Below, in pieces: positions 37,748-45,297 of a DNA stretch of 64,000 bases. This DNA comes from Thermogutta terrifontis (GTDB lineage: Bacteria; Planctomycetota; Planctomycetia; Pirellulales; Thermoguttaceae). The stretch spans positions 682,001-746,000 of the forward strand of contig NZ_CP018477.1 of assembly GCF_002277955.1 (NCBI RefSeq). The letters run 5' to 3'. The notes beneath the pieces are model-generated. The model was not told the origin of the DNA. It did not search any database and saw only the letters and a program-made list of their open reading frames with translations. Numbering within the stretch: the first letter of the stretch is position 1; each line of letters opens with the position of its first letter. The position numbers and the translations under genes are program-made.

Positions 37748-38314
37748 ATGTCGGCATCCTTTGGAGAGAGTTACCGCGAAGCGGATATTCTGACGGCCCC
37801 ACCTCAGCGACTCCATCTCATGCTGATCGAGGGCGCGATTCGTTTCATCGAACGTGCCCGACATCTCTGGCGGGAAAACCAGTTTGATGCCGGGTTTGAA
37901 TCGCTCCTGCGTGCACAGGAAATCGTCGCGGAGATTCTCTCCGGCATCAAGACGGACAGCGGTTTCCCGATCGCTCGACGTGTGGCGGCCCTGTATACGT
38001 TCGTTTATCGGTGTCTTGTCGAAGCTGGACTGAAGAGGGAAGAGAAGCCGCTGGAGGATGCTCTCCGCGTGCTGGCCATCCAGCGGGAAACCTGGCAGGA
38101 ACTCTGCCAGCGACTGGCGGCTGCTTCCGAGACACGGGAGAACGTGCAGTTTTCTTCCCAGCAGGAGACGCCTGCGGGGGCGGGCTTCGATTCGGAGAAC
38201 GCTCCACCTTCCCGCAGTCAGCCGGCCGCCCCACATTCGCTCCGTGGCTTGACAGAGCCTCCCGGTTCCGAGTATGCCGGGGAATATGCCTCGGGCTTTT
38301 CCTGGGAAGCCTGA
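37748..38314 (+). CDS. fliS: Flagellar export chaperone FliS
   Basis: 188 residues. The N-terminal 120 residues have the FliS helical bundle: YREADILTAPPQRLHLMLIEGAIRFIERA, then AQEIVAEILSGI and a helix VAALYTFVYRCLVEA. FliS binds flagellin in the cytoplasm to keep it unfolded before export. A 60-residue Ser/Pro/Ala-rich tail is extra compared with typical FliS (about 125-135 aa). It starts 65 bp after fliD on the same strand. Confidence 0.9.
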   Translation: MSASFGESYREADILTAPPQRLHLMLIEGAIRFIERARHLWRENQFDAGFESLLRAQEIVAEILSGIKTDSGFPIARRVAALYTFVYRCLVEAGLKREEKPLEDALRVLAIQRETWQELCQRLAAASETRENVQFSSQQETPAGAGFDSENAPPSRSQPAAPHSLRGLTEPPGSEYAGEYASGFSWEA

Positions 38315-38354
38315 AAATTCCCTGCGACTTTGTCTCGGAAATGCGGGAGAAATC

Positions 38355-39221
38355 ATGGCCACAGAGATAATCACCATTCGGGTGGGACACAGTCCCGATC
38401 CTGACGATGCGTTCATGTTCTACGCCCTGGCCGCAGAGAGAATTCCCACCGGGCGTTATCGATTTGTTCATGAGTTAGTCGATATTGAGACGCTTAATCA
38501 GCGGGCGCTGCGGGGCGAGCTCGAATTGACTGCTCTCAGCTTCCATGCTTATGCGAAGGTACGGGATCGCTACATCCTGTGCCGATGCGGTGCCAGCATG
38601 GGTGATGGCTACGGCCCGCTGGTGGTGGCTCGGCGGTCACTGAGCCGGGACGAGTTGCGGCGAGGTCCGATCGCGGTGCCCGGCCGGTGGACGAGCGCCT
38701 TTCTGGCTCTCCGGCTGTATCTTGGGGACGATTTCCCCTTTGTGCTCGTGCCGTTCGATGAAATTCCCCGCGTGGTGGCAGAGGGCCGTTTTGGCGATCA
38801 GCCCGTTCTGGCGGGACTTCTCATCCACGAAGGGCAACTGACCTTTGCCAGGGAGGGACTTGTCAAGCTGGTGGATTTGGGGGAGTGGTGGACCACGGAA
38901 ACCGGACTACCGTTGCCCCTGGGCGGGAATGCCATCCGGCGGGATCTCGGGCTGGAGGTGCAGCGGGACATCCACCGGTTGCTGCGGCAGAGCATCGATT
39001 ATGCGCTGGCCCACCGTGACGAGGCCCTGGCCCATGCGATGCGGTATGCGCGGGACCTCGATCATTCGCTCGCGGATCAATTCGTGGGCATGTACGTGAA
39101 TCGGTGGACCCAGGAGCTCGGGCCCCAGGGAATAGAGGCGGTTCGTCTCTTTTTACGAAGGGGATTCGAAGTGCGGGCTCTTCCCGAACTGATCGAGCCG
39201 GAATTTATCCGCGAGGCCTGA
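38355..39221 (+). CDS. mqnD: 1,4-dihydroxy-6-naphthoate synthase (futalosine menaquinone pathway)
   Basis: 288 residues from ATG 38355 (GGGAGA upstream). The MqnA/MqnD family pattern is clear: GHSPDPDDAFMFYAL near the N-terminus, VDIETLNQRALRGELELTALSFHAY, MGDGYGPLVVARR and FLALRLYLGDDF. The first motif and the overall order favour MqnD, which converts cyclic de-hypoxanthine futalosine to 1,4-dihydroxy-6-naphthoate. It therefore indicates menaquinone synthesis by the futalosine route. No other mqn gene is adjacent; it follows fliS by 40 bp, so it may share that transcript. Confidence 0.87.
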   Translation: MATEIITIRVGHSPDPDDAFMFYALAAERIPTGRYRFVHELVDIETLNQRALRGELELTALSFHAYAKVRDRYILCRCGASMGDGYGPLVVARRSLSRDELRRGPIAVPGRWTSAFLALRLYLGDDFPFVLVPFDEIPRVVAEGRFGDQPVLAGLLIHEGQLTFAREGLVKLVDLGEWWTTETGLPLPLGGNAIRRDLGLEVQRDIHRLLRQSIDYALAHRDEALAHAMRYARDLDHSLADQFVGMYVNRWTQELGPQGIEAVRLFLRRGFEVRALPELIEPEFIREA

Positions 39222-39280
39222 TCCGGCCTGATGCCCAACACTCGAAAACCACGGCGAAATTGATTTCGGTCTTGGCCAAG

Positions 39281-39313
39281 AAAAAACAACAGGGACCAAA
39301 GCGGTCCCTGTTG
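39281..39313 (-). terminator. Strong Rho-independent terminator downstream of the cold-shock gene
   Basis: A perfect 11-bp stem (CAACAGGGACC and GGTCCCTGTTG) with a 5-nt loop; on the minus strand it is followed by six T. It lies about 175 nt past the cold-shock stop codon, giving a long 3' UTR. It may also serve as a stem at the mqnD 3' end, but no T-run follows on the plus strand. Confidence 0.85.
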
Positions 39314-39489
39314 GGTGCGTCTTATCACCAAATTCCCCCTCGGTCCGGTGCTCGTGGACTCACCGAGGACCTACCCGACGACCCCAGCGTGAATTACGAG
39401 CGGATCTTGGGCAGACGAAAAACTGTGGATCCCGAACAGTCGTGATGATTGAATCATCCGGATGATCGGTTTCCGAGGCGATCTGCCGT

Positions 39490-39717
39490 TCACTTGGGGC
39501 GAACGGAAATCGCGCGTGGGCCTTTGCCACGGCCCGGATTCGGCGCTTCAGAGCTCAGATCGTACTCGACGCTCTGACCTTCGTGAAGGTCCTCGAAACG
39601 CGCTCCCTCCACTGCGGAGAAGTGGAAGAAGACATCCGACTTGCGCCCGGAACCGGTGGTTTGGATGAAGCCAAAACCGCGGTCCACAACCAACTTCTTA
39701 ATAACACCCTCGGCCAT
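39490..39717 (-). CDS. CspA-family cold-shock protein
   Basis: 75 residues from ATG 39717, with AGGAG eight nt upstream; a GTG at 39726 is in frame but overlaps that ribosome site. RNP1 (GFGFI) and RNP2 (DVFFHFS) motifs are present, with the usual SGRKSD loop and C-terminal GPRAISVRPK. Cold-shock-domain proteins bind single-stranded RNA/DNA as chaperones. The leader upstream can form competing structures that mask the ribosome site (see 39718-39877), and a strong terminator follows at 39281-39313. Confidence 0.95.
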   Translation of the reverse strand: MAEGVIKKLVVDRGFGFIQTTGSGRKSDVFFHFSAVEGARFEDLHEGQSVEYDLSSEAPNPGRGKGPRAISVRPK

Positions 39718-39877
39718 TAAAGCCACTCCTCAAAACGAAACGTACTCGCGGACATTGTCCGCACGAAACTTACTCGGAGAGTCTTATGAGATGAGCGTCC
39801 AGTCGCCGGTGCATTGACCTCGACAAGGAGTGGCTCAAGTCTCATAAAACATCCGAACTCCCAAAGAATGCACCGGC
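39718..39877 (-). promoter_or_regulatory. Candidate structured leader (thermosensor-like) of the cold-shock mRNA
   Basis: In the mRNA (minus strand) the segment AGGAGTGGCT containing the Shine-Dalgarno sequence (39730-39721) is perfectly complementary to AGCCACTCCT (39835-39826). Two more perfect inverted repeats cross it: GCCGGTGCATT (39877-39867) with AATGCACCGGC (39815-39805), and TTATGAGA (39847-39840) with TCTCATAA (39791-39784). A local hairpin with a 6-bp stem GCGGAC/GTCCGC and triloop lies at 39748-39762. Because the three long-range pairings interleave, they can only coexist as pseudoknots or act as alternative folds. E. coli cspA mRNA is known to switch between such states with temperature. 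Confidence 0.6.
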
Positions 39878-40268
39878 TCGATCAAGGGCCCACCGGTTCA
39901 TTCTCACGACAATGAGAACTTTAGCCTAAGGATGATCTTCAGGCAAGCCCTCACCTTGCATTTTTTTCGACACATAGATACCCCGCCCATAAACATATCT
40001 TTTCCGAAACACACCTTTCGAGATTGATTCGTTTATTGTGCCCCTTTTGTGCTGGCCTGCATTTTCATCGGGATTGATCAATTCCCGTTTTTCAAAGGCC
40101 TGTGAGATGCCGAACGCTCAGTCGGGCGTAGGGGCAGTCCATAACGGTTCGGGGAATAGGGTAGGGGTAGTTCATGGATGGCCCCTCCGCTTGAATGCGG
40201 ATCTGACAGGCAGCTCCTTCCGGGATGCGAAGGGACACGTCTGTCGTGCGCGGTGGCACTCCGGCGGT
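39878..40268. other. Upstream region of the cold-shock gene with decayed repeats
   Basis: No gene. A small hairpin TTCTCA-cgacaa-TGAGAA lies at 39901-39918, possibly part of the same leader. The promoter of the cold-shock gene is expected here. A degraded family-A palindrome sits at about 40161-40187, followed by remnants of family B to about 40260. Confidence 0.5.
40117..40260. repeat. Degraded family A/B palindromes
   Basis: GGGTAGTTCATGGATGGCCCC at about 40163-40183 matches family A with several substitutions; GATCTGACAGGCAGCTC and GGACACGTCTGTCGTGC after it are family-B hairpins with mismatched arms. The copies look old. Confidence 0.6.
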
Positions 40269-41087
40269 TCAACCCGTTTCCCGGCGAAAGCCCAGTTTGT
40301 ACGCCATTTCAAAGTCGGAGCGGGCTTTCTCTTCTTCGCCCAGCATCTGATAGACGAGTGCCCGATTGTTGTAAGCGTCTGCCAGGTCGGGCTTCAAGCG
40401 AATAGCCTGGTCGAAGTCGGCCAGCGCCTTGTCAAGTTGTCGGAAGGCCTGATAGATCGTGCCGCGATTGTTGTAGGCCCGATAGTGCCGGGGATCGAGT
40501 TCTATCGCCCGCGTGTAGTCCGCCAGAGCGTTGTGAAAATCCTCTTTGAGTGCGTAGGCGAAACCGCGATTAAAATAGGCGTTGGCGTCGTTGGGATTGA
40601 GCTGGATGGCCACCGTTAAATCGGCAATGGCCGGGTCGTACATTTTCTTTCCGAAGTAGGCGACACCGCGACCGTTATACGCTTCGGCAAGGTTGGGGTT
40701 GAGTCGCAGGGCCTCATTGAAGTCGGCAATCGCCCAATCGTAGTCGCCCTTGGCTGTGCAGGCGAGACCACGTGTGCAGTAAGCCTCCGCCATCTGGGGA
40801 TTGAGGCGGATGGCCGTGGTGAGATCGGCGATGGCCCACTGGTACTGCCCCCGGGTATAGTAGGCCAGTCCCCGTGCATAATACGCCCGGGCACACTTAG
40901 GTGCCGCGCGAACCGCCTGGTGGAATCGCGCCAGAGCCTCTTCTGAATTTCCCGCTTCCAGAAGCTCCATCCCCTCAGCAATCAGCTTTTCCGCCTGCTG
41001 TTGGGCGGGATCCACCGGCGGAGCCGCCGGCGGTGCAGGTCTCAAGACGGCCGCAATTTTCTTCCACAGACCTTTCAACGCAGGCAT
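40269..41087 (-). CDS. TPR-repeat protein
   Basis: 272 residues. After a Pro/Ala-rich N-terminus (about 35 residues) come seven consecutive 34-residue tetratricopeptide repeats, each with the W/L-G-Y/F-A-P pattern (for example AYYARGLAYYTRGQYQWAIADL, AYNGRGVAYFGKKMYDPAIADL). TPRs mediate protein-protein contacts. No signal peptide is evident, so it is probably cytoplasmic. Partners are unknown; the SdrD-like gene upstream on the same strand is separated by repeats and is probably independent. Confidence 0.88.
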   Translation of the reverse strand: MPALKGLWKKIAAVLRPAPPAAPPVDPAQQQAEKLIAEGMELLEAGNSEEALARFHQAVRAAPKCARAYYARGLAYYTRGQYQWAIADLTTAIRLNPQMAEAYCTRGLACTAKGDYDWAIADFNEALRLNPNLAEAYNGRGVAYFGKKMYDPAIADLTVAIQLNPNDANAYFNRGFAYALKEDFHNALADYTRAIELDPRHYRAYNNRGTIYQAFRQLDKALADFDQAIRLKPDLADAYNNRALVYQMLGEEEKARSDFEMAYKLGFRRETG

Positions 41088-41544: not shown

Positions 41545-44500
41545 TCAGTCTCCGGCACTGGGGGCCGGTTCTGCGACTCGGGGCCGTACCCCCTGGGATA
41601 CCGGCGGAGAACCGCTTTCCTGGGGTCCGCGAGTGTGATAGACGCCCACCTCGGCCTTGCCGTCTCCATTGAAATCTCCCGCGAATGGCCGATCGCCTTT
41701 TCCGCCCAGCAGGAACACCTTGTCCACGTCTGTGAGGCGGAAGTCCCCGTCGGTATCCAGGATGAAGCGGCCGTCGCGATACACACCGAGTTTGGTGATG
41801 CCATCGCCGATCCAGTCACCAACGACGGGGAGATCACCGGCCTGGCCGAAGAACGCAATGCGGTCTTTCTCGCCCCAGCGTCCGTCGCCATCCATATCGA
41901 GATACCACACACCCCCGCGGAAGACGCCAATGGTGGCAATCCCGTCTCCATTCCAGTCGCCGACGACGGCGAAGTCCCCAGGCTCACCGTACATGAAGAC
42001 ATGGTCGATGAGGTCTTCGCGGGCGGGGCCGGCGGCTCCCTGCTTGAGGATCCGCCGTTCGTCAGGGGCCTGGGCCGGAGTGGGAGGCAGATTTCTGGGA
42101 CGCAGCGCCACGAGCCGATTTTGGGCGTCGGGAAGCCCCGGCTCGACCCGCAGAGCCCGATCATCGCCCAGCCACGCTGGTCCGAACACACCCACGTCGG
42201 CCTTGCCGTCGCCATCCCAGTCACCGGCGACGGGCTGATCGCCGTCCCTACCCAGCTTGATCCACAGGTCGCCTTCGTCCCAGACGCCGTTACCATTCAG
42301 GTCGATAAAAAACATTCCGCCAAAGAACACGCCGAGCTGGACATGCCCCACTCCAGCAAAATCGGCGACAACAGGGAGTGCCGCCTCGGTGCCCAACGTG
42401 CCAAAAGTTGTCACCTCTCCCGTAGCAAGATCAAGGATTTTCCATTCGCCGCGATCGAGCGGCAGACCTTGCCATCGCGCAGGGTCGAAGTAACTCGCTT
42501 CCCGAATGGTCACCTGCCGCAGGCCGTCGTCGCGGTGTCGCGGCATTCCCCCGTTGATGACGCTCAAATGCCAGGTGTATTCCACCGTTCCCGCACTTCC
42601 GGCAAAACGGGGAAGAGTGGGCTGGTTTGGCAATACGGGAGAAATCTGCAGGGTGATGGGTGTGCTCTCCGGCGGAATGATCGGGGACCGCGGTTGGGGA
42701 GGCAGCGGTGACGGCGGTGGGGTGAATGGGGGAAGGAAAGGCGGGATCGCCGTCACGAGCACCTCGGCAAAGTTGTACTCTTTTCCCTCGCTCCCGGCTC
42801 CCAGTGGAACCAAAAGAATCGCGTCATACTGGGGATCAAACGCGAGCGGCGGAAGAGCGCCAAGATCCATTCCGGGATTGACCGCCAGTCCGCCAAGAGT
42901 TCCCACCGTGTCCGGGCCATCTTCGTATCCTGCCGGTTGGATTTCTCGGATCGTGTAAACCCCCGGCCGAAGGTTGGTGAACTGATAAAACCCGTTGGCG
43001 TCCGTGTAGGTCACGAGCGGCTTGCCCGAGGCATCCAGCACCGGTCGTCCCTGGGCATCACGCAGCTCGATTTGAACACCGGCCAGCGGCGTATCATCGG
43101 GCGTGCGGCGGCCATCCCGGAGCTGGAATGGGTCGGGACGCGGTTGCCCCCAAACGTATGTTAGGGCGGGGCCATCCTGAAAGACATAGCCGCTGATGCT
43201 GGCCGGGCGGATTTCGGCGAAGTTGTATTCTTCCCCGGACACCCCGGGAGGCAGCTTCACGTTGATAATGCGGTCGTTACCATCCAATTCGCCACCCGCC
43301 GTCCCCACAAAGTCAGCGCCGTCAAGGTAGCCGTCCGGCTGGATCTCGACCACTGAATAATAACCGGGAAAGAGATTCTCGAATCGGTATCGCCCGTCGG
43401 CATCGGTGGTGGTTGTGGCCACGAGCTGACCCTCAGACGTGTAAAGTTCGATGGTCACGCCGGAGATGGGTTGATCGCCGGCGTCGATGAGATCGTTCGC
43501 GTTCTCATCCGAGACGACCCGGCCCGCGAGGCTCACCGGGGCGATTTCGCCAAAGAGATACTCCCGCCCCTGCGTTCCCGATAGCAGTACAATTCCGGCA
43601 ATTGTGTCAGGGCCGACAAGTTGCCCCCCGGCCGTTCCCGCGTGGTCGCAACCGTCGAAAAAGCCGTGGGGTTGTGTTTCCGTCAGGCTGTAAGTTCCCG
43701 GCAGAAGACCGGTAAACTCATATCGGCCGTTGGCATCCGTGACGGCCGTGGCGAGCAAACTCCCGTCTGCCAGACGAAGTTCGATCGTCACGCCGGGGAG
43801 CGTGGGTTCTCCGAGATCATACTGGCAGTTGAGGTTGAGGTCGGAATAGACCCATCCGGACAGCGATGCCGGCAGGATTTCGCCGAAATCATAGTCTGTG
43901 CCGACTCCAGCCGCCGGCACGCGGATCTGAGTGATCGCATCACCGGGGTTCTGCGCTTCTCCGCCCAGCGATCCGGCGCGATCGAGACCGTCGATGTAAT
44001 CAGCAGGTTGTGTTTCTTCCACGCGATAAGTACCGGGATAGAGTCCGGCGACGGCCCAGCTTCCGTCCGCGGTGGTGGTCACCGTCCAGGACTGCTGGGG
44101 TGCAAAGCTATCAGCCTCTCGAATGACGACAATCGTGACGCCTGGGATCCCGGTTTCCCCCTCCTCTCGCAGACCATTATTGTTGATGTCGTGATACACG
44201 TGACCGGAAAGACGGGCCGGTCGGACCTCCGCGAAATTGTTGCCAAGGCTCTCTTCACCACCGAGAAGCGTGATTTCTGATATGACATCCGCGGATTGGA
44301 CGGTGCCGCGCTGGGTGCCGTTGACCGCTCCTGCCGCCGCGCCCACGCTGAGATAGCCATCCGGCTGTTGCTCAACCACGCGGTAGGTGCCCGGCAACAA
44401 ATTGTCAAAGCGGTAGAAGCCGTCGCTGTCGGTGGTTGTTGTGCGAGCGGTGAAAACATACTCTCCCGTGTCCTCTGTCTTTTGCCAGAGCTGGAGGACC

Positions 44501-45297
44501 ACACCGGCGAGCGGCCGATCGCCCGAGTTGAAAACCACATCCAGATTGGGATCTTCAAAAACGCGTCCGCTGATGGCCACGGGAAGCGGGGTCTGGATGA
44601 GGCTGATAAACGCCGCGGCTGTGCGGACGGGTTGAGGTTCCGCCAGCGGAGGACTGTAACTATCCGAAGGTAGGCGCAATCCCGCAGCTACAAGTTTTGG
44701 GTCATAGGCATCAATGAACATATCCTCGCCGGTCGCGTCGTAATAATGCGGCGCGACGAACCAGGCGGTGAGCCGGGAACCTTCAAATTCATTTCCCTCG
44801 GCCACGGCGTTGGGCCCCAGAAAGCCCATCTCATCGACGTCAATGCTGAAGACAAATCGTTCTCCGGCGTCAAAGCCGACGAAGTCCAGAACAAGTTTTG
44901 TCCCACCATCGGCGACGGACACCGAGTAACTATCGATCCCAGTTGCGGAGACGACGCTGAACGGACCATAGCCGAAGGCCCCGATTCCACCTGGGTCTGT
45001 ATCGAAGAAACAATCCCCGATCGTCAGGCCGTCACCGAGTTTGTCGGTGTCAATGACGATTCGGGTAAGCTGAGTGCCCGGGGCGCCACCCTGGAATGTG
45101 AGCTCAAATGTGTCACCGCTCTCATCAGTGCCAGTGGCGTCCTCGTAATACACCATCCCCAACTGGATCGGGGAAGCCGACAAAAGCGTGCGGGGCTCCA
45201 TCTGCTCGAAATGGCACCGACGGTAGCGCCGGCTGGTGTTCGATCGCCGACCAGGATGGCGCGAGTTCCCGAATAGACGTGTGATCATGCGTTTCAC
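41545..45297 (-). CDS. Large planctomycete surface protein with SdrD B-like repeats and FG-GAP-like C-terminus
   Basis: 1250 residues; GTG 45297 follows GGAGGA by 6 nt, an ATG is at 45288. The N-terminus carries the planctomycete signature FEQMEPRTLLSA (about 30-41), thought to mark export. A cohesin-like or jelly-roll region (about 45-190) is followed by five SdrD-B/Cna-B-type domains starting near SGRVFEDPNLDVVF, SGHVYHDINNNGLRE, SGWVYSDLNLNCQYD, AGRVVSDENANDLID and SGYVFQDGPALTYVW. A Pro-rich linker (PPFLPPFTPPPSPLPPQP) leads to a C-terminal beta-propeller-like part with repeats of the type GDWDGDGKADVGVF. Calcium-binding and adhesive roles are typical for such parts. No sorting signal at the C-terminus. 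Confidence 0.88.
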   Translation of the reverse strand: MKRMITRLFGNSRHPGRRSNTSRRYRRCHFEQMEPRTLLSASPIQLGMVYYEDATGTDESGDTFELTFQGGAPGTQLTRIVIDTDKLGDGLTIGDCFFDTDPGGIGAFGYGPFSVVSATGIDSYSVSVADGGTKLVLDFVGFDAGERFVFSIDVDEMGFLGPNAVAEGNEFEGSRLTAWFVAPHYYDATGEDMFIDAYDPKLVAAGLRLPSDSYSPPLAEPQPVRTAAAFISLIQTPLPVAISGRVFEDPNLDVVFNSGDRPLAGVVLQLWQKTEDTGEYVFTARTTTTDSDGFYRFDNLLPGTYRVVEQQPDGYLSVGAAAGAVNGTQRGTVQSADVISEITLLGGEESLGNNFAEVRPARLSGHVYHDINNNGLREEGETGIPGVTIVVIREADSFAPQQSWTVTTTADGSWAVAGLYPGTYRVEETQPADYIDGLDRAGSLGGEAQNPGDAITQIRVPAAGVGTDYDFGEILPASLSGWVYSDLNLNCQYDLGEPTLPGVTIELRLADGSLLATAVTDANGRYEFTGLLPGTYSLTETQPHGFFDGCDHAGTAGGQLVGPDTIAGIVLLSGTQGREYLFGEIAPVSLAGRVVSDENANDLIDAGDQPISGVTIELYTSEGQLVATTTTDADGRYRFENLFPGYYSVVEIQPDGYLDGADFVGTAGGELDGNDRIINVKLPPGVSGEEYNFAEIRPASISGYVFQDGPALTYVWGQPRPDPFQLRDGRRTPDDTPLAGVQIELRDAQGRPVLDASGKPLVTYTDANGFYQFTNLRPGVYTIREIQPAGYEDGPDTVGTLGGLAVNPGMDLGALPPLAFDPQYDAILLVPLGAGSEGKEYNFAEVLVTAIPPFLPPFTPPPSPLPPQPRSPIIPPESTPITLQISPVLPNQPTLPRFAGSAGTVEYTWHLSVINGGMPRHRDDGLRQVTIREASYFDPARWQGLPLDRGEWKILDLATGEVTTFGTLGTEAALPVVADFAGVGHVQLGVFFGGMFFIDLNGNGVWDEGDLWIKLGRDGDQPVAGDWDGDGKADVGVFGPAWLGDDRALRVEPGLPDAQNRLVALRPRNLPPTPAQAPDERRILKQGAAGPAREDLIDHVFMYGEPGDFAVVGDWNGDGIATIGVFRGGVWYLDMDGDGRWGEKDRIAFFGQAGDLPVVGDWIGDGITKLGVYRDGRFILDTDGDFRLTDVDKVFLLGGKGDRPFAGDFNGDGKAEVGVYHTRGPQESGSPPVSQGVRPRVAEPAPSAGD

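Follow-up and report, generated by a model that had tools for sequence, protein, structure and literature searches.

Does the leader of the cold-shock gene (csp) in the window, the whole 64,000-nt stretch of Thermogutta terrifontis DNA analysed here, hide the gene's own ribosome site, and if so, is it temperature that opens it? How csp genes are controlled through their leaders has been worked out mainly in Escherichia coli. There, cspA mRNA refolds with temperature between a closed conformer that hides the Shine-Dalgarno (SD) sequence and an alternative one that exposes it, and CspA reportedly enhances translation from its own mRNA in the closed conformation (PMC9947658). Our literature search found no paper on RNA thermometers in planctomycetes; the combination of Thermogutta and cold shock returned a metagenome paper only, and that of planctomycetes, cold shock protein and leader returned none on a csp leader, judged by title.

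The cold-shock gene and the pairings in its leader

The csp gene (39490..39717, minus strand) encodes a 75-aa cold-shock-domain protein that matched PF00313 at 60.5 bits, bearing out the original prediction of a cold-shock gene. It gave the only PF00313 match in a profile search of this one genome, a single contig of 4,810,751 bases; the genome report likewise describes the strain R1 chromosome as closed, with 4,810,751 bases (PMC5673643). In a simple consensus count across 330 nt, the top-scoring promoter-like pair comprised a predicted -35 element, TTGCCT (39941..39946, minus strand), and a predicted -10 element, TAAAGT (39918..39923, minus strand), with a 17-base spacing. The top pair had the same form, TTGCC(T/G/A), 17 bases, TA(A/C)A(G/T)T, in each csp leader found in the genus, three in all. 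The csp transcript would thus start at about 39911, with a leader of about 194 nt, and the predicted start lies upstream of every pairing described below. A start downstream of 39826 would leave the anti-SD sequence outside the mRNA; the predicted one falls on the upstream side.

Four perfect pairings were recovered in the minus-strand leader, all at the coordinates originally given. Pair A (11 bp) joins 39867..39877 to 39805..39815. Pair B joins the block 39826..39835 (hereafter, the anti-SD block) to the SD region AGGAGTGGCT (39721..39730), over 10 bp or, with G-U pairs, 13 bp. Pair C joins 39840..39847 to 39784..39791 over 8 bp (11 bp with G-U pairs, the 5' arm then spanning 39850-39840), and its two arms are paired in the nested ground state. 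Hairpin H, GCGGAC AAT GTCCGC (39748..39762), has its arms at 39762-39757 and 39753-39748. Pairs A, B, and C interleave as had been described, each crossing the others.

The 10- and 11-bp complements had been judged unlikely by chance, and this held. Among 1000 shuffles of the 160 nt that kept the dinucleotides, 10 contained one or more pairs of ≥10 bp, 2 contained one or more of ≥11 bp, and none had two pairs of ≥10 bp; pairs of ≥8 bp averaged 0.11 per shuffle. The SD complement was also compared with those of 231 other reading frames, chosen mechanically from the window and 400 kb of the T. terrifontis genome (≥120 aa with an SD-like motif, for which csp itself is too short), by matching the 22 nt immediately upstream of the start against the preceding 178 nt. 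A 10-bp perfect complement of the SD region was found in none of the 231, and one of 9 bp in four.

Several further features of the locus were observed. A 19-codon reading frame (39901-39842, minus strand; ATG AAC CGG TGG ... TTA TGA) begins right after the predicted transcript start and terminates within pair C. In the window, csp is flanked by solute-binding-like and TPR-like reading frames (38274-41087; names by eye), and a divergent Hsp70-like reading frame adjoins csp in the two other genomes of the genus that carry the gene (L090 and L091). The csp gene, its promoter, and its leader may have moved together between neighbourhoods. Further along, a 1250-aa minus-strand reading frame (41545-45297) carries repeated Cna-B-like segments, recognised by eye, and starts with MEPRTLLSA, which, again by eye, we take to be typical of planctomycete surface proteins.

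Predicted alternative folds and conservation of the pairings within the genus

When the predicted leader and the gene start were folded without pseudoknots, pair C was in the minimum and pairs A and B were out at every temperature computed. The probability of pair C was 0.93-0.99 from 20 to 70 °C, that of pair B was at most 0.004 at all temperatures, and forcing pair B alone cost 9.3 kcal/mol at 37 °C. The 8-bp pair, earlier set aside as possibly due to chance, is accordingly the helix that nested folding prefers, and the emphasis placed on it needs correcting. Pair C excludes the anti-SD pair, and pair B was competitive with it only as a pseudoknot with pair A: at 37 °C, the A+B state reached -76.7 kcal/mol before any pseudoknot penalty, against -76.0 kcal/mol for the C state, and adding the penalty would favour C. 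In growing transcripts, pair A was in the minimum once 39804 had been made, and pair C took over by 39785. A+B and C are thus rival folds, and there is no need for all three pairs to form at once; the folding model makes two exclusive alternative states plausible for this leader. Of the pseudoknots or exclusive states in the original prediction, exclusive states are plausible, while a knot of all three pairs found no comparative support. Against 200 shuffles, the single-leader fold of the window's leader had a z of -2.32 (5/200 as low), and those of the two other leaders of the genus, L003 and L004, had -0.25 (81/200) and -1.08 (29/200), respectively, these two being no stabler singly than shuffled sequence.

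The genus was represented by four genomes, three of which have a csp gene (the window's, and those of L003 in G003 and L004 in G002); no cold-shock-domain match was found in the fourth, G001. The leaders of L003 and L004 are longer (about 258 and 260 nt), and the anti-SD core GAGCC(A/G)CT (39826-39835 plus 39836 in the window) occurs in each of the three and begins at -119 (window), -236 (L003), and -238 (L004) from the start codon. Changes between species in the helix of block and SD region were one-sided exchanges of G-C with G-U or A-U with G-U that kept the pairing; two-sided changes were absent from this alignment of three leaders, which has little power to detect them. Relative to shuffled upstream sequence, the best SD duplex had p values of 0.01 in the window's leader (L002), 0.02 in L003, and 0.13 in L004. 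The helix formed in the nested ensemble of L003 with a probability of 0.92-0.98 between 20 and 70 °C, and in that of L004 with 0.95 at 20 °C, falling to 0.46 at 70 °C.

Folded together, the L003 and L004 leaders reached -85.3, compared with -66.4 (sd 5.0) for column shuffles, none of 200 being as low. With 30 nt of the gene included, the consensus had 84 pairs with 3 two-sided, 11 one-sided, and no broken changes, on a structure picked from the same alignment that was used for scoring. The two leaders are hardly independent, because 231 of the 290 aligned columns agree (the 30 nt of gene included). No counterpart of pair A or pair C was seen in the L003/L004 alignment or in the list of the ten strongest stems of each leader; of the crossing helices A and B, only B was seen in these leaders. 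Around the block, L003 and L004 have their own hairpin (GTCCGA/TCGGAC), which overlaps it. Comparison within the genus therefore lends modest support to masking of the ribosome site, the block being kept in 3/3 leaders, and as far as the alignments go, SD masking is plausible as a trait of the genus.

The reading that we prefer, at roughly even odds, is that the leader of this sole csp gene is a translation-control region that sequesters the SD region by means of exclusive folds. Pairing of the anti-SD block with the SD region would lower initiation, and a competing fold, in T. terrifontis the hairpin closed by pair C, would free the SD region. Pair A may hold the anti-SD block in its loop and so favour the closed, pseudoknotted state. 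The prevailing state would most likely be set by folding during transcription together with RNA chaperones, not by temperature alone, and the Csp protein itself would be a natural candidate for feedback. Since E. coli CspA is reported to act on its own closed mRNA, such feedback is a reasonable lead by analogy, not a result of this analysis.

Hairpin H and csp leaders outside the genus

A DNA search with the window's leader against 119 genomes of the family (which we take to be Thermoguttaceae) matched its own genome and no other, and leaders were therefore compared via the protein. No excess of SD complementarity was found outside the genus: 2 of 43 csp leaders had p≤0.05, one among the ten with hairpin H and one among the 33 without it, and an anti-SD excess there was rejected. 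This set left out L033-L035 (copies of L003, L004, and L041) and L025 and L036 (start unrecognised), took L049 at an upstream ATG, and did not include 40 csp loci found later. As far as these leaders show, the anti-SD sequence is confined to the genus; the complementarity asked of orthologous leaders is kept in both others of the genus and absent in relatives beyond it. The motif AGGAGTGGC precedes 11 of the 29 csp genes listed, 8 of them outside the genus, and being common there, its conservation says nothing for pairing.

Hairpin H, a minor item in the original prediction, was present as described and is the most widely conserved element of the csp leader in our sequence comparisons. At 39762-39748, it aligns with a GCGGGC-loop-GCCCGC hairpin ahead of the SD sequence of other csp genes. 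A first MAFFT alignment of this region (A1) misplaced the Thermogutta rows and was replaced by one of shorter segments anchored by eye (A2), with L045, which lacks the hairpin, left out. Across the 11 leaders, 95.5% of cells pair and two pairs show a two-sided change, in one sequence each; the covariation score of 0.173 was reached in 3 of 500 shuffles, and the best slid version scored 0.094. The common fold of the eight H leaders outside the genus consisted of H and a 2-bp stem, nothing more.

In the 119 family genomes, a covariance model of H gave 13 sites at E≤1e-6, each abutting a csp match by coordinates. Eleven of these had been used in the model and two were new, in G117 and G071, the latter from the same genus as G021 with a leader much like its own. 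Among the weaker sites listed (E up to 0.01; 32 further), one of the 12 inspected, L072, precedes a csp gene, and another, G117:C155:32730, abuts a csp match by coordinates. The weak match in G001 had no csp pattern in the surrounding 2.2 kb. A search of 296 genomes of the order gave matches at E≤1e-4 in 14; nine of these are strong family sites, and the other five had no csp pattern in the surrounding DNA. All whole-genome searches with RNA models in this analysis scored just 15 to 50 first-look candidates in each genome and may have missed sites. Judged from these sequences, H marks csp genes of one protein type (DRGFGFI) in the family, not all of them: no evident copy was seen by eye ahead of the DRGFGFI-type genes L007, L013, L040, L043, and L044; the weak site L072 is located at L013.

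This distribution gives weight to a different account, less probable than SD sequestration though a serious one, in which the anti-SD complement is a coincidence kept by common descent and H does the work, as elsewhere in the family, serving beside the SD sequence as a standby or protein-binding site or protecting the message. H extends well beyond the genus, with each strong site abutting csp, SD complementarity beyond the genus does not exceed chance, and only one of the ten other H-bearing csp genes shows it in excess, so that H occurs without it; the near-zero nested probability of pair B in the window's leader fits as well. A coincidence explains less readily why the 8-nt core was kept although the leaders align poorly and its spacing has changed, or why none of the 231 other genes has a 10-bp complement.

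A separate leader element was observed ahead of the KGFGFI-type csp genes of the family, about 110 nt long and with a covarying hairpin (L020:1371-1482, L134:212-322, and others of alignment A4). Its covariation score was 0.417 versus 0.251 in shuffles (0/500; 38 rows, alignment fitted to the model) and, in an unfitted alignment of 27 sequences picked by eye, 0.300 versus 0.213 (0/500), a figure that counts in a suspected pseudoknot; RNAalifold returned no pairs on the unfitted alignment. That pseudoknot, between a C-tract and a G-run and suspected by eye, was unsupported on testing. Among 246 order genomes, the model found 17 sites, spread over 14 genomes. Of these sites, 16 lie ahead of a csp pattern and about 6 are outside the model's own sequences; the remaining locus, L164 (G060:C53:48137-48243; E 1.7e-7), had no csp pattern in the surrounding 3.1 kb. 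No Rfam match at gathering threshold was obtained in the 17 loci scanned, and the element was not found in the three Thermogutta csp leaders.

Temperature, known leaders, and the role of the csp leader

The two states of the window's leader were compared over a range of temperatures, with energies of the A+B state again lacking the pseudoknot penalty. A+B and C reached -106.6 and -108.7 kcal/mol at 20 °C, -62.8 and -61.4 at 45 °C, -46.2 and -46.6 at 55 °C, -34.3 and -34.7 at 65 °C, -29.4 and -29.1 at 70 °C, and -24.9 and -24.0 at 75 °C. From 20 to 75 °C, the gap ranged from -1.4 to +2.1 kcal/mol without a steady trend, the C state being favoured most at 20 °C. The computed mean unpaired fraction of the SD sequence changed between 20 and 70 °C from 0.21 to 0.43 in the window's leader, from 0.01 to 0.36 in L003, and from 0.33 to 0.22 in L004. 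The independent thermosensor that the original prediction had allowed for did not emerge from the computation, and temperature sensing by the csp leader is not indicated by these models.

A more specific form of the preferred reading, which we regard as doubtful in its full detail, is a genus-specific switch in which a pseudoknot with a loop-held anti-SD block would close the SD region, a hairpin of nearly equal energy would free it, and Csp or the pace of transcription would set the balance; its purpose would be feedback and not temperature sensing, with H marking the csp genes of the family. It is improbable that the leader is instead a thermosensor whose fold shifts with temperature to open or hide the ribosome site, as the mRNA of E. 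coli cspA, a gene of the same protein family, is described as doing (PMC9947658). The weakening of the L004 SD helix with heat (probability 0.95 at 20 °C, 0.46 at 70 °C) and the 2.1 kcal/mol preference for the C state at 20 °C agree with it, but the trendless gap between states and the steady probability of pair C (0.93-0.99, 20 to 70 °C) do not, the L003 helix still stands at 0.92 at 70 °C, and heat does not raise the average openness of the L004 SD sequence. Moreover, an SD helix that merely melts would open in heat, not in cold, and lead to heat induction. Far less probable still is premature termination, in which H and a U-rich stretch (GAGTACGTTTCGTTTTG after H in the window, GAGTGTTTTTC in L003 and L004) would form an attenuator under control of the upstream folds, but no such T run follows H in the eight other A2 leaders and the SD sequence comes directly after the stretch following H.

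Scanned against Rfam at gathering thresholds, the whole window gave a tRNA match alone, and all matches in a lax scan of 39400-40300 were far below gathering. The E. coli cspA thermoregulator (RF01766) had no match in the leader; its sole match fell within the coding sequence, at 39562-39636, and scored 23.8 bits where gathering requires 78. The likeness to cspA is that of a structured leader ahead of a cold-shock-domain gene, whereas the window's leader has no clear computed temperature dependence. RNA thermometers of the ROSE and fourU types have a helix that occludes the SD sequence. As in these, the SD region here pairs with an upstream block, but the helix is long-range and that of L003 was computed to be still formed at 60-70 °C. 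SD-sequestering pseudoknots or bistable leaders are known from the preQ1 class and S15 mRNA. With them, the csp leader shares a loop segment that pairs with a downstream SD region and an exclusive alternative helix; it differs in having no known ligand or protein and in a topology inferred for one species. The csp leader is most likely an SD-sequestering leader of a known kind and not the Rfam cspA element.

Returning to the sequestration that we prefer, an SD-masking leader on a thermophile's only csp gene would raise the matter of what role it plays in an organism whose Csp may serve chiefly for something other than cold shock, and the csp-marking hairpin H offers a handle across a family.
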